A stretch of DNA of 64,000 nt from Haloprofundus salilacus (lineage in GTDB: Archaea; Halobacteriota; Halobacteria; Halobacteriales; Haloferacaceae): NCBI RefSeq assembly GCF_020150815.1, contig NZ_CP083723.1, forward strand, positions 496,001 through 560,000, given 5' to 3'. The translations under genes and the position numbers were made by a program. Shown here piece after piece: positions 21,895 to 25,637 of the stretch. The notes under the pieces were generated by a model. The model was not told the origin of the DNA, ran no database searches, and was given only the letters and a program-made list of their open reading frames with translations. How positions within the stretch are numbered: position 1 is the stretch's first letter; every line of letters starts with the position of its first letter.

Positions 21895-23205
21895 TTAGAG
21901 GAGGACGGCGGCGAGCGCGACGCTCACGACGGCGCCCGACAGCGTCGCGAGGAAGTTCACCGCCTGATTGCCGATGCGGTTGCCCTCCACGGTCGCCCCG
22001 AGGAGGCTGTCGACGGTCATCCCGCCGACACCGCCGAGTGCGACGATGGCTGCGCTCACGACCGGCTGGTCGAGCGGCAACAGCATGGCGGCGACGGCGG
22101 CGACGAGCACCGACCCGACGACGCCGGCGAGTTCGCCCTGCCACGTCACCGCGCCGTCGGTTCCCGGTTCGACCGGGCGGAGCGTAGTGATGAGCCGCGG
22201 CGTGTCGAAGAGGCCGCCCACTTCGCTCGACAGCGTATCGCTCATCGCCGCTGCGAGAGATCCGGCGAACGCGAACAGAAACAGCAACTCGACGCTCGCT
22301 CGCTGGGTCGCGGCGAAGCCGAGAACGGCCACCATCGCGACGGCAGCGTTGCCGAGGACGTTACCGCTGCCGCGCGCGCCGTCGTTCTCCTCGGCGACGC
22401 CGCGCTGGCGCTTCGATTCGTACTTGAACTTCGTCGAGAGTGCGCCGACACCGAAGAAGGTGATGAGAACGGCGAACCAGCCGAATCCGCCCAGCACGAT
22501 AGTGAGCACGCCGAGGAGGATGCCCGTGAGCATCCCCGGAACCGACGCGGTCCCGAGCGCGTACGAGACGTAGCCGAGGACGATAGTCAACACGAGTGCT
22601 GCGCCGACCTCCAGCGGCGACACGTCGATAGGGAGTTCGTGGAACAGCCACAGCAGCAGGCCGGTCGAGACGAGCACCAACGGGTCGTCGTGTTTGAGGA
22701 GGACCTCCCGAAGGAGCGCGGCGACGAACGCGCCGACGGCGGCCAGAAACCCAAGTTTCGGAACCGACAGCGTCTCCGGAGTCACCGAGACGACGAGCGC
22801 CTGCCCGCCAACGGCCGCCAGAAACCCGGCGACGGTGAACCCGGCGACGGCGTGGAACTCGCCGTCGTTCCAGCGGGAGACTAACTGCTCGCCGAGGTTA
22901 CCGTAGGCGACGAGGACGACCGCGGCGACGAAGGCGCTACTGGGCATTCGCGTCTCCGGCACCGTCGCCAACACCGCCAACGCCGCTGCGGCGAGCGCGA
23001 ACCCCAAGAGTCCGGTCAGACGGCCGTCTTGGCGGTCGCCCGGGCGGGCGAACAGCTCGAAGAGACGGCCGTCCTCGCCGACGAACGCGGCGACGGCGGC
23101 GACGGCGGCGAACGGAACCGCCGCTGCGACGCCGAGCGCGGGCGTGGCGAGCGCGAGAGATCCGACGGCGGCGAATCCGGCCGCGCGTCGGAGTGTCGAT
23201 GTCAC
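21895..23205 (-). CDS. DUF92 polytopic membrane protein
   Basis: A 436-residue protein with at least ten hydrophobic helices. Its C-terminal half contains the DUF92 hallmarks: a FFGVGALSTKFKYESKRQRG loop, the GNVLGNA segment, DTLSSEVG and TVEGNRIGNQAVNFL. DUF92 proteins occur across archaea and plants, and some are linked to phytyl-phosphate kinase (VTE6), so a role in isoprenoid-alcohol phosphate metabolism is conceivable. That is only a family-level hint, but a suggestive one given the cis-prenyltransferase genes next door. It is upstream in the operon with the GNAT gene. Confidence 0.85.
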   Translation of the reverse strand: MTSTLRRAAGFAAVGSLALATPALGVAAAVPFAAVAAVAAFVGEDGRLFELFARPGDRQDGRLTGLLGFALAAAALAVLATVPETRMPSSAFVAAVVLVAYGNLGEQLVSRWNDGEFHAVAGFTVAGFLAAVGGQALVVSVTPETLSVPKLGFLAAVGAFVAALLREVLLKHDDPLVLVSTGLLLWLFHELPIDVSPLEVGAALVLTIVLGYVSYALGTASVPGMLTGILLGVLTIVLGGFGWFAVLITFFGVGALSTKFKYESKRQRGVAEENDGARGSGNVLGNAAVAMVAVLGFAATQRASVELLFLFAFAGSLAAAMSDTLSSEVGGLFDTPRLITTLRPVEPGTDGAVTWQGELAGVVGSVLVAAVAAMLLPLDQPVVSAAIVALGGVGGMTVDSLLGATVEGNRIGNQAVNFLATLSGAVVSVALAAVLL

Positions 23206-23386: not shown

Positions 23387-23995
23387 GTGGCCCTGTACGA
23401 TACGTATCTCGCGCTTCGCCACCGCCGCTCGACGGCGGACTCTCCCCGACACGTCGCCGTCGTCATCACCGAACGCGACCTGTTGGAGAAAGGCGCTTAC
23501 GAGACGCTCGAACGGTTCCTCGAGTGGACGTTCGAGTACGGGGCCGAACGCGTCACCGTCTCGGTGAGCGTTCTCGACCCCGCTGTCGTTCCGACGCTCG
23601 AACGGGAGTTGCGCGATGTCGACGCCCCACGACAACTCGTCGTCCGCAGTCCCGACGACACGGAACGCGCCGACGCCCCCATTCAGGTGAGCATCGGTCT
23701 CGGCGGCAAACACGAGTTCGCCGAGGCGGTCCGCTCGCTGGCCCGCGAAGTCGAAGACGGGACACTCGACCCCGAAGACATCGACGAAACGGACATCGAG
23801 GGGCGACTCGTCTTCCCTGACGAACCGGACCTCGTGCTGAAAACGGGGGCTGAGCGGCTCTCAGATTTCATGATCTGGCAGTCGGTTTACTCGGAACTGT
23901 ACTTCACCGACGTGAACTGGCGGGACTTCCGCAAGCGCGACTACCTCCGCGCGGTGCTGGATTACAAGGATCGAAAGCGGCGCTTCGGGCGGTAG
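23387..23995 (+). CDS. Non-catalytic cis-prenyltransferase homologue (NgBR/Nus1-like)
   Basis: A 202-residue protein starting at GTG 23387 (MALYDTYLALRH). Its C-terminal two-thirds align with undecaprenyl/dehydrodolichyl diphosphate synthases: LVLKTGAERLSDFMIWQSVY at about 149-168, ELYFTDVNWRDF at 170-181, and a terminal RFG (199-201) matching the RxG motif. The N-terminal diphosphate-binding DGNRR is absent: HVAVVITERDL occupies its place (22-32). A cis-prenyltransferase without the DGNRR Asp should be inactive alone. It is convergent with the true uppS-type gene, which lacks RxG. Together they fit a heteromeric enzyme. Confidence 0.82.
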   Translation: MALYDTYLALRHRRSTADSPRHVAVVITERDLLEKGAYETLERFLEWTFEYGAERVTVSVSVLDPAVVPTLERELRDVDAPRQLVVRSPDDTERADAPIQVSIGLGGKHEFAEAVRSLAREVEDGTLDPEDIDETDIEGRLVFPDEPDLVLKTGAERLSDFMIWQSVYSELYFTDVNWRDFRKRDYLRAVLDYKDRKRRFGR

Positions 23996-24023
23996 CCCGA
24001 AGGCCGTCACGGAAGTAACGGAA

Positions 24024-24057
24024 GTTTAGACGTTGAGTGCGAGCGAAACGTCCAAAC
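24024..24057. terminator. Inverted repeat between convergent prenyltransferase genes
   Basis: GTTTAGACGTT (24024-24034) and AACGTCCAAAC (24047-24057) can pair over 10 of 11 positions, with a 12-nt loop. The hairpin sits midway between the two convergent stop codons and may end transcription from both sides or stabilise 3' ends. Confidence 0.35.
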
Positions 24058-24145
24058 GCCGTCGGGAAGCGAGCAAAGCGGGCAAACCGACGGAAGTTTG
24101 GCCGGTAGTTCGAAGATCGTCGTCGAAGGCGAGAGGCTCAGCGGC

Positions 24146-25075
24146 TCAGTCGGCCGGTTCCGTCTCGTGGTTCGCGAGCGCCTCGTCTATCTCGGCGGCC
24201 CCAGCGCTCGTGAGTTGGTCGCGGAGTCGCCCGGCGACGGTCTTCGCCTCCGCCAGTTCCGCCTCCGCCAGCGACCTGACAAGCGCGACGGCCCGGTTCG
24301 TCCGGTGACGCTGCCACGACGCCTCGCGGGACTCGTACGTGCGGATGCCGCGGAGGAAATCGACCTTCGAGAACTCCGGCCAGTAGGGTGCGCAGAAGAA
24401 CACCGCCGCCTCGTTGCCGTTCGCGTGCCACGGGAGGAAGTTGGAGGTTCGCTCGTCGCCGCCGGTCCGGATGATGAGGTCCACGTCGCGGACGGGTCGG
24501 CGGTAGAGTCGGCGCTCGACCTCCTCCACGTCGATGTCGTCGGGTGAGAGGTCCCCGGCGTCGACGGCGCGCGCGACGTCGCGGGCGGCCTCCAGCAGTT
24601 CGGCGCGTCCGCCGTACGCCAGCGCAATGTTCAGCGTGAACTCGTCGTAGCCGCGAGTCTGTCGTTCGGCGTAGTCGACGGCGTCTCTGACCCGCTCTGG
24701 CAGTCGGTCGATGGCGCCGATGGCGCGGATGCACACCTCGTTCTCGTGGACTCGGTCCGCGTCGGCGAACTCGTACAGTTTCGACTCGATGAGGTCGAAC
24801 AGCGGTTCACGCTCCTCGGGTGGCCGCTCGAAGTTCTCCGTCGAAAACGCGTACAGCGTCAGTTCGGCGATGCCGAGTTCCTGACACCAGTCGAGGACGC
24901 GCTCGGTCGTCTCCGCGCCCGCACGGTGGCCGTCCGGCGCGTTCTCGCCGTTTTGCTCGGCGTACCGCCGGTTCCCGTCCTGGATGATGGCGACGTGCGT
25001 GGGTCCCTCGCCGACTTCGCCGCGTAGCAACCGCTCGTACCCCGATGCGAACTCTCGCCGGACCCGCCGGAACAT
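24146..25075 (-). CDS. uppS: Cis-prenyltransferase catalytic subunit (UppS/DHDDS-type)
   Basis: A 309-residue cis-prenyltransferase elongating isopentenyl diphosphate chains to polyprenyl diphosphate for dolichol and N-glycosylation carriers. The diphosphate-binding motif HVAIIQDGNRRYA places the catalytic Asp at residue 33. IALAYGGRAELLEAA, LIIRTGGDERTSNFLPW and APYWPEFSKVDFLRGIRTY are family blocks. The C-terminal RxG motif is not present; the chain continues as SREASWQRHR plus a helical extension. The ATG at 25075 was chosen because upstream in-frame codons look non-coding. The missing RxG is supplied by the adjacent paralogue in the proposed complex. Confidence 0.92.
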   Translation of the reverse strand: MFRRVRREFASGYERLLRGEVGEGPTHVAIIQDGNRRYAEQNGENAPDGHRAGAETTERVLDWCQELGIAELTLYAFSTENFERPPEEREPLFDLIESKLYEFADADRVHENEVCIRAIGAIDRLPERVRDAVDYAERQTRGYDEFTLNIALAYGGRAELLEAARDVARAVDAGDLSPDDIDVEEVERRLYRRPVRDVDLIIRTGGDERTSNFLPWHANGNEAAVFFCAPYWPEFSKVDFLRGIRTYESREASWQRHRTNRAVALVRSLAEAELAEAKTVAGRLRDQLTSAGAAEIDEALANHETEPAD

Positions 25076-25238: not shown

Positions 25239-25637
25239 ATGAGCGAGATTCTCGACGAGGACCTCTACAAGCGGACGAAGGCCCTGCTGGAACCCGGCGA
25301 CATCCAACTCAACGGCGTCATCGTCCACACCGACCTCTCTGGGCAGGAGGACCTGGAGATGCACGAACTCACCGTCGAACTGAACGACGTGATCGCCGAG
25401 CACGCGGGGAAAGGCGAGACGTACATCTACGCCGGCAACGACGACTCCAACTTCGCTTCCAACCAGTTTCAGGGGTTGACGCTGGAGGACGACGAGTTCG
25501 TCTGGGAGTGCCAGCAACTCCTGCGAAACGGCGCGTTCAACCTCGTGTTCTACTACGAAGCCGACGCCGACCACGAGGCCATCGTCGAAGACATCGAGGA
25601 GATGGGCTACCGAGTGACCGGCGTCCGCGGCGACTGA
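25239..25637 (+). CDS. DUF5778 family protein
   Basis: A 132-residue acidic soluble protein starting MSEILDEDLYKRT. It matches the haloarchaeal DUF5778 family, whose function is unknown. Predicted alternating strands and helices (VIVHTDLSG, MHELTVELNDVI, FNLVFYYEAD) suggest an alpha/beta fold. The ATG at 25239 is 164 bp from the divergent uppS start. Its end lies inside a 28-bp tandem duplication shared with the convergent rhodanese gene. Confidence 0.75.
   Translation: MSEILDEDLYKRTKALLEPGDIQLNGVIVHTDLSGQEDLEMHELTVELNDVIAEHAGKGETYIYAGNDDSNFASNQFQGLTLEDDEFVWECQQLLRNGAFNLVFYYEADADHEAIVEDIEEMGYRVTGVRGD

Follow-up and report, generated by a model that had tools for sequence, protein, structure and literature searches.

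A probable heteromeric cis-prenyltransferase with catalytic motifs split over two chains in Haloprofundus salilacus and its relatives

Two neighbouring genes of the haloarchaeon Haloprofundus salilacus probably encode the two subunits of one heteromeric cis-prenyltransferase, a reading to which we give a probability of roughly 0.88. Both genes lie in the window, by which we mean the whole stretch of 64,000 nucleotides that was analysed. The gene at 23387-23995 (forward strand) encodes a protein of 202 residues, here called the short protein, which would be the accessory, NgBR/Nus1-like subunit. The gene at 24146-25075 (reverse strand) encodes a protein of 309 residues, here called the long protein, which would be the catalytic, DHDDS/UppS-like subunit. 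Judging from sequence comparison, the DGNRR motif of the long protein would bind the allylic starter diphosphate and Mg2+, and its tunnel would hold the chain. The short protein would have lost the substrate-binding N-terminal half and kept the dimer-interface half. Its C-terminal RxG is predicted to cross the interface and enter the long protein's active site, where it would aid isopentenyl diphosphate binding in trans and position the pyrophosphates.

The short gene begins with GTG, and its product matches PF01255 only in the C-terminal half of the family (profile positions 107-219; Pfam, E 5e-26, far above chance). In alignment with E. coli UppS, the site of the lost DGN diphosphate motif reads HVAVVITERDL (H22-L32; 23450-23482, forward strand). 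The N-terminal DGN is absent from every short protein examined, and T28-E29-R30-D31-L32-L33 are invariant across 31 haloarchaeal short proteins. At the other end stands the RxG motif, R199-F200-G201 (23981-23989, forward strand), followed by R202 as the end of the chain. Among 133 distinct short proteins of the phylum, glycine occupies position -2 without exception (RxG in 132, KxG in one), and exactly one residue follows the motif in 133 of 133. Conservation is concentrated in the C-terminal half, the N-terminal half being variable, and the residues strongly constrained phylum-wide include W164, Q165, Y168, E170, R182, R188, R196, R198 and G201. The column of E. coli E213 holds glutamate in 37/37 aligned short proteins and asparagine, lysine or another residue in many long ones, so that this glutamate may act in trans or matter at the interface. 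The AlphaFold2 model of the short protein has a mean pLDDT of 83.6, with low confidence in the tail, given as residues 163-169. Longer open frames are available upstream of both the short and the long start; the chosen starts are supported by family alignments, in which nearly all short orthologues have 202 residues and most long orthologues about 302-331.

The long protein covers positions 1-216 of the PF01255 profile (Pfam, E 1e-68, far above chance) and scores 234 bits against TIGR00055 (cut-off 110). Its DGNRR diphosphate/Mg2+ motif (D33-R37; 24965-24979, reverse strand) is present in all 64 aligned long proteins; seven long proteins initially scored as lacking it, probably through start-codon choice, were left out of later counts. 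Equivalents of E. coli D26, N28, R30, S71, N74, R77, R194, R200 and S202 are likewise kept in 64/64, and E. coli R39 is not conserved. At the position of RxG the long protein reads YESREASWQRH and then continues for about 55 more residues; among the 64 aligned long proteins these columns vary freely. The AlphaFold2 model (mean pLDDT 84.8, low confidence around 210-220) places a C-terminal helical extension at approximately residues 255-309 (24149-24313, reverse strand) in place of an RxG tail, the helices at the end of the chain being 237-272, 274-285 and 290-304, most of them with a pLDDT of about 76-80. The extension is missing in several other archaeal long proteins. Those of family f15 (L144-L170) end near residue 255 without it, and one of them, L150, ends in RRFGGQKYK, which looks like an RxG on a catalytic chain. 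The preliminary description had proposed just such a pair, a 309-residue protein with DGNRR (D33) and no C-terminal RxG beside a 202-residue protein with R199-F200-G201 and HVAVVITERDL in place of DGNRR; both proteins are as it described them, and their complementary split holds up and recurs in the orthologues examined.

The same division of DGN and RxG between two chains is seen in DHDDS/NgBR and in yeast Rer2 or Srt1 with Nus1. In the human enzyme, DHDDS holds farnesyl diphosphate and Mg2+ through D34, R37, R38 and R85, and the RxG tail of NgBR crosses the interface into the DHDDS active site; there the second diphosphate is bound by the tail glycine and the backbone next to it, and the terminal carboxylate meets R37 and R85 (PMC7573591). 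The equivalents of these DHDDS residues in the long protein, D33, R36, R37 and R84, are all present, and human NgBR ends one residue past RxG (K293, PMC7573591), as does the short protein. By analogy, these residues together with this chain end make the same arrangement most likely for the haloarchaeal pair. DHDDS, too, has a C-terminal helical extension, a helix-turn-helix that mediates tetramers, to which the predicted extension of the long protein may correspond. The model of the long protein superimposes on DHDDS (7pb1_A) with Z 28.5 and an rmsd of 2.4 over 243 residues, and that of the short protein on NgBR (6z1n_B) with Z 14.3 and an rmsd of 4.2 over 177, bacterial UppS scoring about equally in both cases. 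Foldseek aligned the long protein with DHDDS over nearly its full length with an rmsd of 9-12, so that the predicted packing of the C-terminal helices is tentative; in the VIA-align comparison of the two, coverage extended only up to about 255-267. The haloarchaeal pair differs from DHDDS/NgBR in that the short protein lacks an N-terminal membrane segment and in that the products are probably shorter.

As regards descent, the relationship to NgBR is less specific. The 202-residue protein starts MALYDTYLALRHRR, in which no hydrophobic segment is apparent by reading. Given that no N-terminal transmembrane domain was found, the short protein was not accepted as a strict NgBR/Nus1 orthologue and is classed as working like NgBR only. 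A phylum-wide profile of short proteins matches NgBR from end to end (18-207), with an E value of 2e-10 as against 3e-34 for bacterial enzymes, and since bacterial UppS outscores NgBR, no specific link between the short protein and NgBR follows. A chain end one or two residues after RxG is seen in some bacterial chains too, and such an ending alone is therefore no mark of NgBR descent. We consider it unlikely that the archaeal short protein and eukaryotic NgBR come from one duplication, with the two-subunit dolichol synthase inherited by eukaryotes from an archaeal ancestor instead of having arisen separately. Bacterial homodimeric UppS shares family, fold and most active-site residues with the long protein, but it carries DGN and RxG in one chain, whereas in the window they are split over two; identity with homodimeric UppS is ruled out on this ground.

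The survey of orthologues covered the archaeal phylum Halobacteriota, across which the pair is found and nearly universal. In the source genome (99.66% complete) the short and long genes are the only members of PF01255. The family is present in 242/242 Halobacteria genomes, with exactly two genes in 232 (counted from the table), three or four in nine and the short gene only in one draft. The nearest named relative, Haloprofundus marisrubri, shares 93% identity in the short and 91% in the long protein. Two points raised by the preliminary description, namely whether the pair co-occurs in other haloarchaeal genomes and whether any orthologue unites both motifs, can thus be answered in its favour: the pair occurs throughout Halobacteria, and none of the haloarchaeal long proteins examined has RxG at its chain end. 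An RxG-like tail was found in 5 of 157 distinct long proteins, all five from non-haloarchaeal families, and those of the five genomes in which the short gene was looked for still carry it.

This distribution bears on whether the short protein might be a decayed paralogue whose role has nothing to do with prenyl transfer, its RxG a mere relic. The loss of DGN and of other substrate-binding residues would agree with that, as would the variable N-terminal half. We nevertheless find it scarcely credible, for a short orthologue was present in each of the 87 Halobacteria genomes searched, its C-terminal half is strongly constrained across the phylum, and a relic would not retain precisely those parts which NgBR uses in trans.

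Some genomes depart from the usual gene content. More than one long paralogue occurs in some haloarchaeal genomes (L236 and L237 in G067, L238 and L239 in G194, L240 and L241 in G225); G067, with two long genes and one short, recalls yeast Rer2 and Srt1 sharing Nus1. PF01255 is absent from five draft genomes of family f18 (G248, G257, G266, G275 and G282; 75-91% complete), which looks like a loss of cis-prenyltransferase.

A tree of 104 proteins places all short proteins in one clade (100/100) and all long proteins in another (92/90). MM_0014-like third enzymes, a clade of their own (100/100) with a long branch, and E. coli UppS stand apart from both. According to PMC8131916, citing Emi et al. 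2019, Methanosarcina mazei has three enzymes, of which MM_0618 and MM_1083 form a heteromeric cis-prenyltransferase with C45-50 products. A heteromeric enzyme of this kind has been described before in another archaeon, with one catalytic and one RxG-bearing partner in a member of the same phylum, as in the window. A genome with three enzymes was assigned to Methanosarcina on the strength of the third of them, which differs very little from the solved MA1831/MM_0014 proteins. Its pair (L206 long, L188 short) falls inside the long and short clades that hold the window pair. With the MM_0014-like enzyme eliminated, L206 and L188 are presumed to be orthologous to MM_0618 and MM_1083, and through this assignment by elimination the window pair presumably is as well. 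The pair genes are far apart in the Methanosarcina genome, whereas in the window they are convergent neighbours. The long protein itself was rejected as an MM_0014-type single-chain enzyme, given its separate clade and its ending in a helical extension, not TLGG.

The Methanosarcina enzymes also help to weigh the view that the long protein is an active homodimer alone, the short protein serving separately as a regulator or scaffold without completing the active site. Even without an RxG, MM_0014 is active alone (PMC8131916); DHDDS homodimers have weak activity (PMC7573591); and extra long paralogues are sometimes located away from the short gene. All this speaks for a self-sufficient long protein, which we still regard as quite improbable. 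No feature of the short family is kept more strictly than the RxG tail, the MM_0014-like enzymes form a separate clade and end in TLGG, which the long proteins do not, and a heteromer is reported for the orthologous pair of Methanosarcina. A heteromer is thus the reading favoured by homology. The preliminary description had judged the pair a likely heteromeric dolichyl diphosphate synthase for N-glycosylation, which these results support with one caveat on the product: a polyprenyl diphosphate would be made first, giving dolichol only upon later reduction.

As stated previously, the short (forward) and long (reverse) genes are convergent neighbours with a DUF92 gene next door, and both the coordinates and a PF01940 match (E 7e-58) agree with this. 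The DUF92 membrane protein (21895-23205, reverse strand) is divergent from the short gene and a possible pathway partner. Of 80 named haloarchaeal loci, 64 had the long gene within the fetched flank, and there it was convergent to the short gene in 64/64. DUF92 was in the same locus in 73 of the 80 (62 with the long gene, 11 without), and divergent from the short gene where both were measured. Among 30 genomes from other families of the phylum, the two genes lie at most 3 kb apart in 11 and are convergent in all 11 (coordinates read). Counting against a heteromer, the genes are convergent, do not form one operon and are apart in some genomes. The widely kept convergent order nevertheless argues for a functional tie, though a shared transcript is impossible. 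Mirror-tree distances gave r 0.76 for the short and long proteins, 0.77 and 0.75 with DUF92 as background and a partial r of 0.44; as they fail to single out the short-long pair against DUF92, they were not used as evidence. The plant DUF92 protein VTE6 is a phytyl-phosphate kinase. For the haloarchaeal DUF92 protein, a role in polyprenol phosphorylation is our guess from gene order; a search for usable literature on DUF92 and phytyl phosphate kinase found none. A gene for a DUF5778 protein (25239-25637; PF19090, E 7e-66) begins a short way upstream of the long gene, on the opposite strand.

The physical complex, its activity, its chain length and its carrier role are what we infer for the pair. 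The enzyme would make a polyprenyl diphosphate of medium chain length, destined for the dolichyl-phosphate carrier that AglB uses. A chain length of about C55-60 would be expected. AglB is encoded in the source genome, so that a glycosyl-carrier lipid is needed, and haloarchaeal N-glycans are built on dolichyl phosphate (PMC3871713). Since the genome holds no other cis-prenyltransferase, the pair is the likely, and likely the only, source of this lipid in H. salilacus and, by the same reasoning, in almost all Halobacteria, whose N-glycosylation is genetically well studied.

We found no description of the haloarchaeal pair in the open-licence literature. What is new is how widely it occurs in the phylum, its constant convergent order beside DUF92 and the unvarying C-terminus of the short protein. 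If both genes are labelled 'undecaprenyl diphosphate synthase', the name misleads for the short one. Haloarchaea would offer a convenient system in which to study active-site completion by the accessory subunit of a cis-prenyltransferase, a matter that bears on human disease involving NUS1 and DHDDS.
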